This document shows, one piece after another, positions 34,506-60,300 of a DNA stretch of 64,000 bases. Within the stretch, counting starts at the first letter, position 1, and each line of letters opens with the position of its first letter. The position numbers and the translations under genes were made by a program. This DNA comes from Arenicola marina (Eukaryota > Annelida > Polychaeta > Arenicolidae). The stretch is taken from contig OZ025252.1 of the NCBI GenBank assembly GCA_964019135.1, forward strand, positions 11,424,823-11,488,822. Reading direction: 5' to 3'. The notes beneath the pieces are model-generated. The model had not been told where the DNA came from. It searched no databases and saw nothing but the letters and a program-made list of their open reading frames with translations.

Positions 34506-34705
34506 NNNNNNNNNNNNNNNNNNNNNNNNNNNNNNNNNNNNNNNNNNNNNNNNNNNNNNNNNNNNNNNNNNNNNNNNNNNNNNNNNNNNNNNNNNNNNNN
34601 NNNNNNNNNNNNNNNNNNNNNNNNNNNNNNNNNNNNNNNNNNNNNNNNNNNNNNNNNNNNNNNNNNNNNNNNNNNNNNNNNNNNNNNNNNNNNNNNNNNN
34701 NNNNN
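34506..34705. other. Assembly gap, 200 N
   Basis: Exactly 200 ambiguous bases, a conventional scaffold placeholder, so the true length is unknown. Repeats differ on either side. Confidence 0.98.
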
Positions 34706-38745: not shown

Positions 38746-39094
38746 CTGATCCGGATCTGGTGACAGGGGTTGCCCACACCGTCCATGGGATATCGAGTGG
38801 AAGACGCCCTAGCTGTAGTGCCAACTCACTAACCGCTCGCAGCTTTTTCTCTACCATTCTGCATTCAAATTTCCTTACATTCTTTCTCGGTGCTTTCATC
38901 TTACACAGACGAAGATTTGTCTGGCCAAGTTAAGTACTAAATCTGTCTCTTATATTTCAAGTCTTCTTTCTCCTTCTTAGCTCGATTTACACCATTTTAA
39001 CGTCACTAGAAATACAACTTATTAATCCCCTGCCCTCGCACTTTGGACGTACCCCTCCCCTTTTCCCTAGACCTTGTAGACCCACCCCCGCTCC
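38746..39094. other. Unique DNA with a strong acceptor-like tract
   Basis: The tract ttctttctcggtgctttcatcttacacag ends at 38907 (two parts, both pyrimidine-rich). No phase-compatible exon follows. Confidence 0.4.
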
Positions 39095-40140
39095 CTTACC
39101 TCCCTCACTCCCGCTCCCTTACCTTCTTCTTCCCCGCTCCTTTACCTCCCTCACCCCCGCTCCCTTACCTTCCTCTCCCCCGCTCCTTTACCTCCCCCAC
39201 CCCCGCTCCCTTACCTTCCTCTCCCCCGCTCCTTTACCTCCCCCACCCCCGCTCCCTTACCTTCCTCTCCCCCGCTCCTTTACCTCCCTCACCCCCGCTC
39301 CCTTACCTTCCTCTCCCCCGCTCCTTTACCTCCCTCACCCCCGCTCCCTTACCTTCCTCTCCCCCGCTCCTTTACCTCCCTCACCCCCGCTCCCTTACCT
39401 TCCTCTCCCCCGCTCCTTTACCTCCCCCACCCCGCTCCCTTACCTTCCTCTCCCCCGCTCCTTTACCTCCCTCACCCCCGCTCCCTTACCTTCCTCTCCC
39501 CCGCTCCTTTACCTCTCCCACCCCCGCTCCCTTACCTTCCTCTCCCCCGCTCCTTTACCTCCCCCACCCCCGCTCCCTTACCTTCCTCTCCCCCGCTCCT
39601 TTACCTCCCCCACCCCCGCTCCCTTACCTTCCTCTCCCCCGCTCCTTTACCTCCCCCACCCCCGCTCCCTTACCTTCCTCTCCCCCGCTCCTTTACCTCC
39701 CTCACTCCCGCTCCCTTACCTTCCTCTCCCCCACTCCCTTGCCTCCCTCACCCCCGCTCCCTCACTTCCCTCACCTCCCTCACCCCCGCTCCCTCACCTC
39801 TGCTCCCTCACCCCTGCTCCCTTACCCCGCTCCCTCACCCCCGCTCCCTCACCCCCGCTCCCTAACCCCCAGCTCCCTTACCTCCCTCACCCCCGCTCCC
39901 TTACCTCCCTCACCCCCGCTCCCTCACCCCGCTCCCTCACCCCCGCTCCCTCACCCCCGCTCCCTCACCCCCACTCCCTCACCCTCGCTCTCTCACCCCC
40001 GCTCCCTCACCCCCGCTCCCTCACCCCCACTCCCTCACCCTCGCTCTCTCACCCCCGCTCCCTACCCTCCGCTCCCTCACCCTATCACCCCCGCTCCCTC
40101 ACCCCCGCTCCCTCACCCCCCACTACCTCACCCCCCGCCT
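39095..40140. repeat. 46-bp pyrimidine-rich minisatellite grading to shorter units
   Basis: Units contain CCCCCGCTCCTTTACCTCCC and cccttaccttcctct. From about 39750 the unit shortens to ctccctcacccccg. The top strand is almost entirely C and T with few purines over 1 kb. Confidence 0.92.
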
Positions 40141-50256: not shown

Positions 50257-50405
50257 GTACGAAGGATGAGGAGGAGGAGGAGGCAGTGAAGCCCAAGAGC
50301 ATTGAGGACATGACTGAGGACGAACGCATCGCCGAGCTGGGGCGACCGCGTCTCGGTGACATTGACAAGGTCATCTGCCACATCAGGGAGAGCATGGAGT
50401 TCAAG
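50257..50405 (+). CDS. NCX: NCX exon: end of regulatory loop (acidic stretch plus RIAELGRP motif)
   Basis: The exon is 149 nt: two bases finishing a phase-1 codon, then 49 codons beginning TKDEEEEEAV and ending ESMEFK. RIAELGRPRLG matches the highly conserved segment that follows the second Ca2+-binding domain in animal NCX (RIAEMGRPILG type), and ESMEFK matches the conserved ESYEFK. The acceptor is ttgtag before 50257 and the donor is AAG|gtgagg at 50406, phase 0. The acidic run before the motif corresponds to the stretch next to the alternatively spliced region in vertebrate NCX. The acceptor's pyrimidine tract is only moderate, so the start is slightly less certain than the donor. Confidence 0.9.
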
Positions 50406-53400
50406 GTGAGGGCTCGCTGGCCACCAAGGGCCTGACCTAGTTTGTGACCTACTGTCTGACCTATTTTCTGACCTACTTTCCGACCTTCGTGACCAAGTTT
50501 GTGACATAGATTGTGATCTACTTTGTGACCTAGTTTGTTTGGTAACCTCCAAGATATCTCCAAGTTAATTAAGTAAACTTGGATCTGTCTCGCTAGTAAC
50601 TGGAAGGGTTCCTGGCCAATGACAATACAGATGGAGATAAAATACTGAGAATTTGTTGCCCACAGATGTCACCTTCATGAAATATAGTTATGACCTGAAT
50701 GTTTCTATTCCAGAACACCGTGGATAAGTTGCTGAAGAAGGCAAACATATCTCTAGTGGTTGGCACTTCGTCATGGAGAGAACAGTTCATTGAGGCCGTT
50801 ACCGTTAGTGCAGGTAAAGCGGGGTCAACTGACGTGTTTACTAAAGTACGGAACACAGTCTGTACATGAACACTAAAATACCGCAGACTCCTGGACCTGT
50901 ACTAACCCACGGACACACCCTGTACATGTCCACTAAAGCACGGAAGACTCCTGGACCTGTACTAACCCACGGACACACCCTGTACATGTCCACTAAAGCA
51001 CGGAAGACTCCTGGACCTGTACTAACCCACGGACACACCCTGTACATGTTCATTAAAGTACAGAAGACTCCTGGACCTGTACTAACCCACATTCACACTC
51101 TGTACATGTCCACTAAAGTACGGAAGACTCCTGGACCTGTACTAACCCACAGACACACTCTTGACATGACCACTAAAGTACAGAAGACTCTTAAACCTGT
51201 ACTAACCCACGGACACACCCTCTACATGTTCATTAAAGTACAGAAGACTCCTGGACCTGTACTAACCACAGACACACTCTTGACATGACCACTAAAGTAC
51301 AGAAGACTCTTGAACCTGTACTAACCCACGGACACACCCTCTACATTTTCATTAAAGTACAGAAGACTCCTGGACCTGTACTAACCACAGACACACTCTG
51401 TACATGCCCCATAAAGTACGGAAGACTCCTGGACTTATACCAACCCACGGACACACTCTGGACATGACCACTAAAGTACGGAAGACTCCTGGACTTGTAC
51501 CAACCCATGGACACTCTGCACATGACCACATGTCCACCAGAGTATAAGGCATACTGTTACTTGCCAACTATTGTGTGAAACACGCTGTGCGTGTCAACTA
51601 TCGTGCGAAACCTACTTTTCCATGTCAGTTATCGTACGAAACACTGTATCTGTCAACTAACCTTGCACCACACTTAGATTCACCAAACTGCCAAGCGACA
51701 GGTTAGCCATAGACGTATATTCACAAAGCTATTAGAGCTATTAGAGCAATACCTTTACATCTGACCGTTAATTATCAGTGTTAGAACTGGACCATTCCAT
51801 CTGATCGTTTAACATGTTGAGCCATGCATAACATCGTGAGCTAGGTGTAAAATGGTGAGCCAGGTATAAGATGGTGAGCTAGGTAGAAATGATGAGCCAG
51901 GTATAACATGGTGAGCCAGGTATAATATGGTGAGCTAGGTAGAAATGGTGGGCCAGGTATAACATGGTGAGCCAGGTATAACATGGTGAGCCAGGTATAA
52001 CATGGTGAGCTAGGTATAACATGGTGAGCCAGGTATAACATGGTGAGCTAGGTATAACATGGTGAGCTAGGTATAACATGGTGAGCAAGGTATACCATGG
52101 CGAGCCAGGTATAGCATGGTGAGCCAGGTATAACATGGTGAGCCAGGGATAACATGGTGAGCTAGGTATAACATGGCGAGCCAGGTATAACATGGTGAGC
52201 AAGGTATAACATGGTGAGCTAGATACAACATGGTGAGCTAGGTATAACATGGTGAGCCAGGTATAACATGGTGAGCCAGGCATAACATGGTGAGCCAGGT
52301 ATAACATGGTGAGCTAGGTAGAAATGGTGAGCCAGGTATAACATGGTGAGCTAGGCAGAAATGGTGAGCAAGGTATACCATGGCGAGCCAGGTATAGCAT
52401 GGTGAGCCAGGTATAACATGGTGAGCCAGGGATAACATGGTGAGCTAGGTATAACATGGCGAGCCAGGTATAACATGGTGAGCAAGGTATAACATGGTGA
52501 GCTAGGCAGAAATGGTGAGCAAGGTATACCATGGCGAGCCAGGTATAGCATGGTGGGCCAGGTATAACATGGTGGGCCAGGTATAACATGGTGAGCCAGG
52601 TATAACATGGTGAGCCAGGTATAACATGGTGAGCCAGGTATAACATGGTGAGCCAGGTATAACATGGTGAGCCAGGTATAACATGGTGAGCCAGGTATAA
52701 CATGGTGAGCCAGGTATAACATGGTGGGCCAGGTATAACATGGTGGGCCAGGTGTAACATGGTGGGCCAGGTATAACATGGTGGGCCAGGTATAACATGG
52801 TGAGCCAGGTATAACATGGTGAGCCAGGTGTAACATGGTGAGCCAGGTATAACATGGTGAGCCAGGTATAACATGGTGAGCCAGGTATAATATGGTGAGC
52901 CAGGTATAATATGGTGAGCCAGGTATAACATGGTGAGCCAGGTATAACATGGTGAGCCAGGTATAACATGGTGAGCCAGGTATAACATGGTGAGCCATCG
53001 TTACATAGTGCCGTCGCCGTTCTTTCAGGGGCTCCCGAGGAAACAGCTGTCGAAGGTACCAAGCATATGATAGTATGAGGTAGACCTGAACATTGCGTTT
53101 TATGCATACGTGAGCTGGTGGTTGACCTCACTAGCGGTGTGAAGACGGGTGCCCTATACAGTGACCTTGGCGTGCCCTTGACTTCCTTTCTTTCACAGGC
53201 TGGCTGACGAATTCTACGCTGGTTTTTTAACTTTTCGCTTTGAATAGGCTTACTTCTGAACACGCCTAAACAAGTGGAATTATGCTTCCGTGTACGGAGT
53301 GAAGGCATGAGTGAAAACATATATCATATATATTGGTGCATTCGAATATATATATAAATATGAAATATTTATGAAGCTTCAGATCATGTGTTTGTCACTC

Positions 53401-56400: not shown

Positions 56401-59400
56401 GCTTAAAATTAACTAAAGGTGTCCCTTAACTAAGGGATCTTCTCGTTAAAGTGAGCACTGCTGGACGAGATTATCGGCTCAGCCAAGAAGTTACTATCAA
56501 GTATATCACCATGTTCTGTAGTTGCAAAGAATGGTTTCATTTGTAATGTTTGTTATCAACCTCGTGTGCTGTCCCGGACTCAGAAAGTTGTCGTTACTGC
56601 AGATGTCTGTCTCGACAGCATGGCTGTGGCATCAGGCGATAGGATCTCCGGTTTCCGGATTCCTTCTCTTACAGCGCTGCTCCTGTTCGCCGATGTCATC
56701 ATCCTATCAGTGTGTTGACGGCTGTGGTTTGACGCTGTGTTGACGGTTGTGTTAACAGCTGTGTTGACGCAGTGTTGACGCTGTGTTTAAGGCTGTGTTG
56801 CGGCTGTGTTTGAGGCTGTATTGCGGCTGTGTTGACGCAGTGTTGACACTGTGTTAACGCTGTGTTGACGGCTGTGTTGACACTGTGTTGACGCAGTGTT
56901 GACGGCTATGTTAAAGCTGTGTTGACGCTGTGCTGACGCAGTGTTGGCGGCAGTGTTAACGGCTTTATTAACGCTGTGTTGACGCAGTGTTGACGGCTAT
57001 ATTAACGCTGTGTTGACGCTGTCTTGACGGCTGTGTTGACGCTGTGTTGACGCAGTGTTGACGGCTATGTTGACGGCTGGGTTGACGCAGTGTTGCCGGC
57101 TATGTTGACGATGTGTTGACGGCTGGGTTGACGCTGTGTTGACGGATGTGTTGACGTCTATGTTGACGGGGTTGACGGCTGTGTCGACGGTGTTGACGGG
57201 GTTCAAAGCTGTGTTGACGGCTGTGTTGACGGGCTGGACGGCTGTGTCGACGGGGTTGACGGCTGTGTTGACGGGGTTGAAAGCTGTGTTGACGGGGTTG
57301 ACGGCTGTGTTGAGCGGGTTGACGGCTATTGGGGGTTGGACGGGCCATGCCTTGTGTCGCTCCGTGCGAGGTCTGTCGTGGTCTCTGCCATTACAGTCTA
57401 TTTATGGCCACAGTGACACGTGTTTGTTTGGCGGCCAGGTGACGACGATGAGGAGGGGCAGGAGGAGGACGCCGAAGAGAAGCTGCCGTCCTGCCTGGAC
57501 TACGTCATGCACTTCCTCACCATCTTCTGGAAGGTCATGTTCGCATTCGTGCCGCCCACAGGTGAACACCGCTCCCCGCCAACACACCGCAGTCACAACC
57601 ATAACCAGATTGAAGCATATATATAAACAAATTGTTCCTCACATTTATGTTTGAACAGCCTGGACAGCCTAATCTGCCCATTAGTCGTTGAATAACTGAT
57701 TATGATCCCCGTTCGTCCAATGTTTACCATTTGTAGAAATAGTAATTTCGGTTTATCCATGAACGATTGATGCATTACATTGCTGACTGCGCCACTGACA
57801 GCGTGTTTGTCTGGGTGTTGGCACAGATTACTGGGGTGGGTGGGCCTGCTTCTGCGTGTCCATCATGGTCATCGCCGTCCTCACCGCCCTCATCGGGGAC
57901 ATCGCCACCGGCTTCGGCTGCACCATCGGGCTGAAGGACGCCGTCAACGCCATCAGCTTCGTGGCTCTGGGTACCAGTCTGCCGGGTAAGTGTTTCTTGT
58001 GGAACCGGTCTGCCGGGTAAGTGTTTCTTGTGGAACCGGTCTGCCGGGTAAGTGTTTCTTGTGGAACCGGTCTGCCGGGTAAGTGCTTCTTGTGGAATCG
58101 GTCTGCCGGGTAAGTGTTTCTTGTGGAACCGGTCTGCCGGGTAAGTGCTTCTTGTGGAACCGGTCTGCCGGGTAAGTGCTTCTTGTAGAACCGGTCTGCC
58201 GGGTAAGTGTTTCTTGTGGTACCAGTCGTCCGGGTAAGTGCTTCTTGTGGAACCGGTCTGCCGGGTAAGTGCTTCTTGTGGTACCGGTCTGCCGGGTAAG
58301 TGCTTCTTGTGGTACCAGTCGTCCGGGTAAGTGCTTCTTGTGGAACCGGTCTGCCGGGTAAGTGCTCCTGCTTCTTGTGGTACCAGTCTGCCGGGTAAGT
58401 GCTTCTTGTGGAACCGGTCTGCCGGGTAAGTGCTTCTTGTGGAACCGGTCTGCCGGGTACGTGCTTCTGCTTCTTGTGGTACTAGTCTGCCGGGGAAGTG
58501 CTTCTTGTGGAATCGGTCTGCCGGGTAAGTGCTTCTTGTGGAATCGGTCTGCCGGGTAAGTGCTTCTTGTGGAATCGGTCTGCCGGGTAAGTGTTTCTTG
58601 TGGAACCGGTCTGCCGGGTAAGTGCTTCTTGTGGAACCGGTCTGCCGGGTAAGTGTTTCTTGTGGTACCGGTCTGCCGGGTAAGTGCTTCTTGTGGTACC
58701 AGTCGTCCGGGTAAGTGCTTCTTGTGGAACCGGTCTGCCGGGTAAGTGTTTCTGCTTCTTGTGGTACCGGTCTGCCGGGTAAGTGCTTATTGTGGAACCG
58801 GTCTGCCGGGTACGTGCTTCTGCTTTTTGTGGTACTAGTCTGCCGGGGAAGTGCTTCTTGTGGAATCGGTCTGCCGGGTAAGTGCTTCTGCTTCTTGTGG
58901 TACCAGTCTGCCGGGGAAGTGCTTCTTGTGGAATCGGTCTGCCGGGTAAGTGCTTCTTGTGGAACCAGTCTGCCGGGGAAGTGCTTCTTATGGAACCGGT
59001 CTGCCGGGGAAGTGCTTCTTGTGGAACCAGTCTGCCGGGGAAGTGCTTCTTGTGGAACCGGTCTGCCGGGTAAGTGCTTCTTGTGGAACCAGTCTGCCAG
59101 GTAAGTGCTTCTGCTTCTTGTGGAACCGGTCTGCCGGGTAAGTGCTTCTGCTTCTTGTGGTACCAGTCTTCCGGGTAAGTGGTTCTTGTGGAACCGGTCT
59201 GCCGGGTAAGTGCTTCTGCTTCTTGTGGTACCAGTCTTCCGGGTAAGTGGTTCTTGTGGAACCGGTCTGCCGGGTAAGTGCTTCTGCTTCTTGTGGAACC
59301 AGTCTGCCGGGTAAGTGCTTCTTGTGGTACCGGTCTGCCGGGTAAGTGTTTCTGCTTCTTGTGGTACCGGTCTTCCGGGTAAGTGGTTCTTGTGGAACCA

Positions 59401-60300
59401 GTCTGCCAGGTAAGTGCTTCTGCTTCTTGTGGAACCAGTCTGCTGGGTAAGTGCTTCTTGTGGTACCGGTCTTCCGGGTAAGTGTTTCTGCTTCTTGTGG
59501 TACCGGTCTTCCGGGTAAGTGGTTCTTGTGGAACCAGTCTGCCAGGTAAGTGCTTCTGCTTCTTGTGGAACCAGTCTGCTGGGTAAGTGCTTCTTGTGGT
59601 ACCGGTCTTCCGGGTAAGTGGTTCTTGTGGAACCAGTCTGCAAGGTAAGTGCTTCTGCTTCTTGTGGAACCAGTCTGCCGGGTAAGTGGTTCTTGTGGAA
59701 CCAGTCTGCCAGGTAAGTGATTCTGCTTCTTGTGGAACCAGTCTGCCGGGTAAGTGTTTCTTGTGGAACCAGTCTGCCGGGTAAGTGTTTCTTGTGGTAC
59801 CGGTCTGCCGGGTAAGTGATTCGCTCTACCAAAACGTGATTATTCATATAATAAATATTAGCACTAAAAACGACCTCGATACCTGGGGCGTTACGTACAT
59901 GTGGCGGTGTTGTTTGTTTCCAGACACCTTTGCCAGTAAAGTTGCCGCCGTTGGGGACCAGTACGCTGACTCCTCGGTGGGCAACGTGACCGGAAGTAAC
60001 GCGGTCAACGTCTTCCTGGGAATCGGGATCGCCTGGTCCATAGCCGCCATCTACCACGCCGCCAAGGGCTCGACCTTCAGGGTGGACCCCGGCACGCTCG
60101 GCTTCTCAGTCACCATCTTCTGTTGCTTCGCCCTGATCGCCATCTCAGTCATGTTGTTGCGCAGGACGAAGAGTATAGGAGGCGAGCTCGGCGGGCCCCG
60201 GAAGTACAAGATCCCGACGTCCATTCTCTTCTTCGGCTTGTGGATCGCCTACGTCCTGCTGTCCTCACTGGAGAGCTACTGCCACATCAAGGGCTTCTAG
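50257..60300 (+). CDS. NCX: Na+/Ca2+ exchanger (NCX/SLC8 family), 3' portion; join of exons 50257-50405, 50714-50813, 53029-53055, 57439-57561, 57827-57985, 59924-60300
   Basis: Plasma-membrane antiporter that in this family exports one Ca2+ for three Na+. Joined in frame, the six pieces give about 310 C-terminal residues: the end of the cytosolic regulatory loop (RIAELGRPRLG, then VGTSSWREQFIEAVTVSAG), an acidic linker, KLPSCLDYVMHF opening TM6, DYWGGWACF, the alpha-2 repeat (GCTIGLKDAVNAISFVALGTSLPD ... GNVTGSNAVNVFLG, seen in parts) and a final hydrophobic region ending SYCHIKGF with TAG at 60298-60300. All junctions are GT-AG and phases agree: 0 after the first exon, 1 at all others. The N-terminal membrane half and Ca2+-binding domains are not seen and should lie 5' of the window or of 40.9 kb. 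Every intron longer than 1 kb holds minisatellites; the 308- and 265-bp introns do not. The family call is close to certain; inclusion of the microexon may be alternative. Confidence 0.95.
50714..50813 (+). CDS. NCX: NCX exon: conserved VGTSSWREQFIEAVTVSAG segment
   Basis: This is a 100-nt exon, phase 0 in and phase 1 out: NTVDKLLKKANISL, then VGTSSWREQFIEAVTVSAG. This is one of the most conserved stretches of the NCX loop just before TM6 (vertebrate VGTNSWREQFIEAITVSAG). The acceptor is ttctattccag and the donor CAG|gtaaag. The final G opens a Gly codon completed by the next exon. The downstream intron starts with unique bases and then enters a 60-bp minisatellite from about 50845. Confidence 0.94.
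50845..51535. repeat. 60-bp minisatellite in NCX intron, about 11 units
   Basis: Units contain AAGACTCCTGGACCTGTACT, aacccacggacacaccctgt and acatgtccactaaagca. It starts about 30 bp after the donor at 50814. Confidence 0.93.
51838..52997. repeat. 19-bp minisatellite in NCX intron, about 61 units
   Basis: Units of AGGTATAACATGGTGAGCC with shorter forms (aggtagaaatggtgagcc). It ends 31 bp before the microexon acceptor at 53028. Confidence 0.94.
53029..53055 (+). CDS. NCX: NCX microexon (27 nt, phase 1-1), acidic linker insert
   Basis: A 27-nt exon lies between a good acceptor (ccgttctttcag) and a donor (GAAG|gtacca). Read in the phase fixed by its neighbours (1 in, 1 out) it has no stop and adds APEETAVE between split Gly codons, so the linker reads VSAG-APEETAVE-GDDDEEGQEEDAEEK. 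The length is a multiple of three, so skipping it also keeps the frame (VSAG-DDDEEG), as expected of an optional cassette. It sits 31 bp after the end of the 19-bp minisatellite at 51838-52997, so the branch point must lie in that short gap or in the array. Support is splice signals, phase and composition only; I know of no counterpart at this exact place in vertebrate NCX. Confidence 0.68.
53056..55408 (+). other. Unique intronic sequence of NCX
   Basis: AT-rich intron DNA with several good but phase-incompatible splice-like sites (acceptor at 53199, donor at 54964) and a MITE-like element. No further exon supported. Confidence 0.5.
54380..54570. mobile_element. Possible MITE with AGGGGCGGATC / GATCCGCCCCT termini
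   Basis: The ends form imperfect terminal inverted repeats (AGGGGCGGATCCAG at 54381; CTAGATCCGCCCCT ending 54569). GGGTT occurs directly outside both ends (54375-54379, 54571-54575) and could be a target duplication. The interior is G/C-homopolymer rich and non-coding. A similar terminus (gagatccacccctg) appears at about 55808-55821. Short termini and low-complexity content keep confidence modest. Confidence 0.45.
55409..55680. repeat. 29-bp minisatellite in NCX intron, about 9 units
   Basis: Units contain CCTTAAACAACCCCCCGCCC and ttggattcg, almost identical. Confidence 0.93.
55681..56714 (+). other. Unique intronic sequence of NCX
   Basis: G-run at 55761-55779 and C-rich stretches. No exon or RNA seen. 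Confidence 0.45.
56715..57335. repeat. GTTGACG-based irregular minisatellite in NCX intron
   Basis: Units of 10-13 bp (GCTGTGTTGACG, gcagtgttgac, gggttgacg) in mixed order over 620 bp. It ends about 100 bp before the acceptor of the exon at 57439. Confidence 0.9.
57439..57561 (+). CDS. NCX: NCX exon: acidic linker and TM6
   Basis: This is a 123-nt exon, phase 1 in and out. It begins DDDEEGQEEDAEEKLPSC and continues DYVMHFLTIFWKVMFAFVPPT, matching the vertebrate pattern of an acidic run, EEKLPSCFDYVMHFLT and FAFVPPTEYW. It encodes the cytosolic acidic linker and the first membrane segment of the C-terminal half. The acceptor is tttggcggccag and the donor CACAG|gtgaac. The next intron is only 265 bp and free of repeats, unlike its neighbours. 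Confidence 0.95.
57827..57985 (+). CDS. NCX: NCX exon: TM7 and first part of alpha-2 repeat
   Basis: This is a 159-nt exon, phase 1 in and out. It starts by completing an Asp codon (DYWGGWACF), crosses a membrane segment (VSIMVIAVLTALIGDIA) and enters the alpha-2 repeat (GCTIGLKDAVNA, then FVALGTSLP). The last base is the G of the Asp codon that follows in GTSLPD; this Asp is the ion-coordinating residue equivalent to D814 of mammalian NCX1. The acceptor is ttggcacag and the donor GCCGG|gtaagtg. The donor and the last 15 or so exon bases are the first unit of the 31/37-bp minisatellite that fills the following intron. Confidence 0.95.
57970..59818 (+). repeat. 31/37-bp minisatellite made of exon end plus 5' splice site, fills NCX intron 57986-59923
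   Basis: About 55 tandem units. Each contains TCTGCCGGGTAAGTG, that is the last exon bases and the donor of the exon ending at 57985, followed by a short spacer (cttcttgtggaacc or ...ggtacc). The longer unit has an extra ctgctt. Variants such as gtcgtccgg, gtcttccgg and ccggggaagtg occur. Only about 105 bp of unique sequence remains before the next acceptor. The first unit is the authentic exon-intron junction. Confidence 0.93.
59924..60300 (+). CDS. NCX: NCX terminal exon: rest of alpha-2 repeat, TM8-TM10, C-terminus
   Basis: This is the terminal coding exon, 377 nt including TAG. It completes the Asp codon and reads TFASKVAAVGDQYADSSVG, then NVTGSNAVNVFLGIGIAW, the second half of the alpha-2 repeat with the conserved GNVTGSNAVNVFLG ion-pathway motif. 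Hydrophobic segments follow (FSVTIFCCFALIAISVMLL and LFFGLWIAYVLLSSLE), with the conserved GGELGGPR loop between them and SYCHIKGF at the end. The acceptor tgtttgtttccag is strong. GC content is high and codon use is biased to C/G at third positions, unlike the surrounding introns. No damage is visible, so this allele should be functional. Confidence 0.96.

Follow-up and report, generated by a model that had tools for sequence, protein, structure and literature searches.

The last coding intron of a sodium/calcium exchanger gene (NCX) in an annelid genome is almost wholly a minisatellite whose units repeat the end of the preceding exon together with its 5′ splice site, so that the true donor stands first in a row of 57 donor copies. 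The intron (57986–59923, 1938 bp) lies in a stretch of 64,000 nucleotides from the Arenicola marina assembly GCA_964019135.1 (contig OZ025252.1, forward-strand positions 11,424,823 to 11,488,822), referred to here as the window. By structural definition the array is a mirage, a tandem repeat spanning an exon–intron border. Comparable arrays follow exons of unrelated conserved genes in the same genome, and we consider it likely that they are near-neutral by-products of minisatellite growth across a donor, splicing being confined to the 5′-most copy, probably by exon definition.

Donor copies in the last coding intron of NCX

The plus strand of the window holds the C-terminal exons of an NCX1-like (SLC8) gene (Table 1). 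The joined exons translate without an internal stop, and tblastn with related exchangers as queries recovered the same five exons. Exons D and E together aligned along 178 residues to 8jp0, a solved sodium/calcium exchanger 1 (E 8e-83), with the conserved C-terminal exchanger region running unbroken over their border, which splits the Asp codon of the motif GTSLPD. The exon end at 57985 and the gtaagtg donor at 57986, as given by the original prediction, are therefore correct.

Tandem Repeats Finder described the array by a period of 31 with 56.8 copies or, alternatively, by a period of 68 with 28.3 copies. Anchoring on TCTGCCGGGTAAGTG gave 57 donor positions, from 57986 to 59812. About 55 copies at 57970–59818 had been predicted; the array is real, and its copy number needed slight correction. 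The predicted unit lengths of 31 or 37 bp were exact, as the donor-to-donor spacings comprised 41 of 31 bp and 15 of 37 bp. Each unit consists of about 16 bp of exonic and about 15 bp of intronic sequence and thus spans the exon–intron border. The last 16 exonic bases, which in copy 1 are the exon itself, recur exactly in copies 14 and 30, and the remaining 54 copies carry one to three mismatches within them. At the donor, GTAAGTG was found in 49 copies, GGAAGTG in six and GTACGTG in two. The unit and donor lists thus bear out that the array has amplified the authentic exon end and donor; the further claim that nearly every unit repeats both holds for 49 of the 57 units, the donor being changed in the other eight.

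The repetition is not a chance occurrence. An exact 15-mer core occurred 33 times in the 867-Mb assembly (762 contigs), always inside the array, and the reversed control pattern did not occur at all. Among the 33 arrays of at least 100 bp in the window, the NCX array contained 49 GTRAGT motifs and the other 32 contained zero to two, on either strand. With a looser donor consensus, 47 sites were counted in the NCX array and 14 in the array at 39083–40136 (minus strand).

Only the first donor yields the conserved reading frame. When the use of each donor was simulated, donor 2 added 31 nt and shifted the frame, leading to a stop 16 nt into exon E, and donors 3–57, as well as intron retention, ran into an in-frame TAA whose letters we rechecked. 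All 56 alternative donors and retention were non-productive, in agreement with what had been predicted for the second donor, for read-through and for all donors but the first. Each alternative loses the Asp of GTSLPD, which we take to have a role in ion binding, and everything downstream of it. Donors 4 to 57 would presumably be targets of mRNA decay by the usual 50-nt rule. The conserved frame points to the use of donor 1 in splicing.

On the minus strand, a 776-aa open frame runs across the array (57775–60105), where stops are few because both unit lengths (31 and 37 bp) equal 1 modulo 3. Such long frames stay open because unit lengths of this kind cause all frames to be read in turn, and we rejected the large minus-strand frames over the array as a gene.

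Table 1. Features of the NCX region (positions within the window) and mirage arrays at kinesin exons
Feature	Position or locus	Strand	Basis
Upstream NCX exon A	50257..50405	+	Sequence, exon model, tblastn
Upstream NCX exon B	50714..50813	+	Sequence, exon model, tblastn
Upstream NCX exon C	57439..57561	+	Sequence, exon model, tblastn
Exon D, penultimate coding exon, 159 nt, ending ...GTSLP and the opening base of the Asp codon	57827..57985	+	Sequence, exon model, match to sodium/calcium exchanger 1
Mirage array of 31- or 37-bp units, with exon end and donor present 57 times	57973..59822	+	Tandem Repeats Finder, unit list, donor list
Authentic donor, copy 1 of 57, gtaagtg	57986..57992	+	Sole donor yielding the conserved reading frame
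In-frame TAA, reached on use of donor 3 or later or on intron retention	58018..58020	+	Simulated donor use, letters rechecked
Last donor copy (57), joining unique intron sequence	59812..59818	+	Unit list, border comparison
Unique rest of the intron, about 105 bases, acceptor ...ttgtttgtttccag	59819..59923	+	Sequence, exon model
Exon E, last coding exon, with stop codon	59924..60302	+	Exon model, match to sodium/calcium exchanger 1
Kinesin mirage arrays	L044, L048, L060, L073, L085		Units repeat exon end up to donor
Kinesin mirage arrays with shorter exonic part or later start	L070, L079

Similar arrays behind other exons

Tandem arrays cover 37,647 of the 64,000 bases of the window and 176,902 of the 284,000 bases (62%) of C5:11224823-11508822 around the NCX gene. 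Within these 284 kb, seven of the 112 arrays of at least 100 bp carried at least three GTRAGT motifs on one strand, the NCX array being one of them. Another, at C5:11277749-11279391 (minus strand), repeats ACG/GTAAGT 24 times at 69 bp and is preceded by a putative signal-peptide-like first exon, MAPPWWLLPCLIHLGLASWVPRHDG. It stays a candidate mirage because Pfam gave no match for the putative first-exon peptide. Among the other five GTRAGT-rich arrays, the three that were inspected showed no evident exon end on the donor strand, and the remaining two hold three motifs each. One of the three inspected, a 34-bp array (C5:11247417-11253010), adjoins a plausible minus-strand exon (...DGVDTMVMHVDFVKDKTDTKDLLIAEYICVANYQRPSPPS...) whose start resembles the unit; this array may be a mirage on the acceptor side.

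We also searched the genome with a pattern of three AGGTAAGT spaced 28–58 bp apart. In the first 11.2 Mb of C1, seven arrays were found among the matches listed, compared with three for the reversed control, both being small numbers. Four of the seven lie behind an aldehyde dehydrogenase exon (L032, 39-bp unit; Pfam Aldedh, E 3e-8), a tubulin-tyrosine ligase exon (L036, 52-bp unit; Pfam TTL, E 6e-15), a 149-aa open frame with no Pfam match at the cut-off (L038, 29-bp unit) and a short plausible exon (L035, 38-bp unit). For two more of them, nothing was evident upstream of the first donor. The whole-genome counts of 1861 forward and 5501 reverse matches (control: 1350 and 1423) are hits, not arrays, and can be dominated by a few large arrays; they were not used as a measure of enrichment. 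The units of the aldehyde dehydrogenase array and of the 69-bp array are multiples of three, and the former stays open without a stop through the fetched stretch.

A further sample was chosen independently of donors and consisted of the 3′ ends of 60 among 133 kinesin-domain matches. Contigs C390, C536 and C504, matches with internal stops and very long open frames were left out. In this sample, which was hand-picked roughly by E-value from part of the eligible rows and includes several exons from one gene, a copy test was positive at 10 of the 60 ends, and seven ends (95% interval 5–23%) were followed by arrays built of units in which the exon end recurs as far as the donor (Table 1). The other positives (L050, L051 and L089) were dropped because their repeats are located beyond the exon end, and L090, a degenerate array beginning about at the donor, was left uncounted. 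Units of the seven arrays measured about 38 to 98 bp, and none of the listed spacings was a multiple of three. Outside NCX, the donors of mirages were weaker, as exemplified by GTAGGG and GTAACG. On the acceptor side, one of 20 kinesin exons (L112) has its acceptor border copied twice further upstream, in degenerate form. Given the arrays at aldehyde dehydrogenase, tubulin-tyrosine ligase and kinesin exons, the structure is not special to NCX.

Whereas the kinesin matches on the large contigs are those of short exons, the ones on C390, C536 and C504 are long and broken by stops, and these are possibly foreign DNA or pseudogenes.

Probable origin of the array and presumed choice of the first donor

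How the spliceosome distinguishes a true donor from decoys of equal quality has long been asked, often by means of artificial duplications. For NCX, the following history would account for the structure. A segment of about 31 bp straddling the donor of a short intron would have been duplicated in tandem and then expanded via ordinary slippage and unequal exchange, as in the other minisatellites of this genome; with arrays filling so much of the surrounding 284 kb, border-straddling founders are to be expected. Growth would have taken place on the intron side, the exon copy being held by selection. The first copy would have remained on the real exon and the last on the old intron, so that the exon border stayed unmoved while the intron grew to its present length. 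Splicing would occur at the first copy, the only one to give back the NCX reading frame, most likely with U1 on donor 1 paired across exon D with the acceptor of that exon (exon definition). The later copies would be spliced out as intron and be close to neutral. Since unrelated conserved genes carry similar arrays, their burden must be tolerable.

A preference for the 5′-most donor, which the original prediction offered as an explanation, does not hold as a general rule. According to the excerpted text of PMC5585400, hnRNP A1 favours the intron-distal donor, and the intron-proximal (downstream) one is promoted by SRSF1 and by enhancers situated between the competing donors. As reported factors can push donor choice in both directions, exon context would have to direct the splicing machinery to the first copy, and exon definition of exon D is the likeliest explanation.

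The reported effect of SRSF1 and of enhancers between donors is one of several points that weigh against a by-product spliced at its first copy. Another is that donor 1 has no intrinsic edge. Its predicted pairing with the U1 5′ end, for which we used a general sequence and not that of this genome, was −13.3 kcal/mol, a value tied by 11 copies; 45 copies were weaker and none was stronger. Its local accessibility ranked 32, 30 and 6 of 57, depending on the setting. Donor strength was rejected as the reason for the choice of donor 1 because of the tie, and RNA structure because it gave no consistent advantage. The third point concerns variation among the copies. Across 133 decoys, the copies retrieved from 12 arrays taken together, variation was lower in the donor 9-mer than in its flanks (23 of 1197 versus 120 of 2261 cells), which could mean that the copies are kept; the test is weak, because the copies have a common ancestry and the donor itself served as seed of the search. 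In favour of a by-product, the individual arrays did not set the donor apart: the donor hexamer window of NCX was the fifth lowest of 31 windows and not singled out, and the donor window of the 69-bp array ranked 23rd of 69. GT was lost in six of the 133 pooled decoys, all six in NCX. No selection against decoy donors was seen in the NCX array, the 69-bp array or the 12 arrays pooled, and the donor copies of NCX have been neither weeded out nor evidently maintained.

Several other explanations were weighed. The array might be a regulatory damper, in which later donors or retention lead to truncated or decayed mRNA and NCX output drops with copy number. The non-productive outcome of all 56 alternatives and of retention would suit such a role, and each of the 49 intact donors is predicted to pair better with U1 (−11.4 to −13.3 kcal/mol) than three other NCX donors (−8.3 to −10.1 kcal/mol). 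The presence of similar arrays at unrelated conserved genes nevertheless argues for a general by-product, and variation does not set the decoy donors apart. We regard the damper as unlikely, and neither the ladder of isoforms nor the copy-number control of NCX that were originally proposed is supported.

U1 binding at many sites of the array, another part of the original prediction, is plausible given the pairing predicted for the 49 intact copies. U1 is a safeguard against premature polyadenylation. With dozens of strong sites, this intron might form a platform that recruits U1 and either suppresses premature polyadenylation at an intronic AATAAA or aids elongation. The intron contains a single AATAAA, at 59850 and 38 nt past the start of the last donor copy, as a possible polyadenylation signal; one such motif is weak evidence, and mirages elsewhere in the genome have weaker donors, making a platform rather improbable as the explanation. 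An assembly artefact, with fewer copies or no array at all in the animal, is more improbable still: the window has one 200-base gap of Ns elsewhere (34506–34705), but the variants are ordered, 31- and 37-bp units alternate, the joins to exon and intron are smooth, and arrays with differing units are present at other exons.

The small kinesin sample suggests that many introns are affected. It is conceivable, though we hold it only tentatively, that about one donor in ten is trailed by a minisatellite of its own exon end and that genome-wide splicing rests on a positional rule choosing the 5′-most of equally good donors, whatever preferences between competing donors act elsewhere, with some arrays perhaps also serving as U1 platforms or copy-number dampers. 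These natural duplications provide conserved genes with as many as several dozen almost identical donors, at which 5′ splice-site choice can be tested in vivo. If the first copy is used cleanly, exon definition or another positional rule ignores dozens of equal sites; if its use is leaky, the genome bears a splicing cost that can be measured and should rise with copy number.

Relation to known mirages and identity of the host

Border-spanning tandem repeats in the amphioxus Adh3 and globin genes were termed mirages, and the excerpted text on them reports length instability and names the globins BflGb6 and BflGb9, with BflGb6 haplotypes of six and three units (PMC3087553). Similar repeats are described in lancelet PGBD5, with troponin C cited as a further case (excerpt of PMC3902484), and regular splicing is reported to be undisturbed (excerpts of PMC3087553 and PMC3902484). 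The NCX array shares with these a unit that spans the exon–intron border and copies that retain splice signals (GTAAGTG in 49 of 57). It differs in being in an annelid, in its 57 copies and in the apparent frequency of such arrays in the genome (seven of 60 sampled kinesin donors). Its host is not a lancelet, the group in which the term was coined; since the structural definition does not specify a host, we kept the array filed as a mirage.

In human duplicated genes, minisatellite-like internal tandem repeats at exon–intron borders can alter splice-site use; as described in the excerpted text, they have about four units on average and mainly alter exons or create introns (PMC2812944), whereas in the NCX array the border is retained and donor copies follow it by the dozen. 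Introns of earthworm metallothionein genes likewise contain minisatellite-sized tandem arrays in an annelid, but units copying a splice site are not described in the excerpt of that paper (PMC12783039). Among the open-licence papers searched, we found no report of mirage-type arrays in annelids. Within that literature, the NCX array extends mirages from lancelets to annelids. What is new is the phylum, within the scope of the searches, together with the number of copies and how frequent such arrays appear to be.

Amphioxus as the host was ruled out by the identity of only 67% between the Branchiostoma exchanger and the window NCX and by the matches of the mitochondrial COX1 of the assembly. 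The closest of these was Pilargis wolfi (91%), a member of Pilargidae, Phyllodocida, Annelida, and among the next named matches were many Phyllodocida and some other annelids, and then molluscs. In an exchanger tree, the window gene fell among invertebrate sequences without a firm position and lay outside the vertebrate and gastropod clades, which had support. On the same contig, a large exon for the N-terminal part of NCX is situated about 75 kb upstream.
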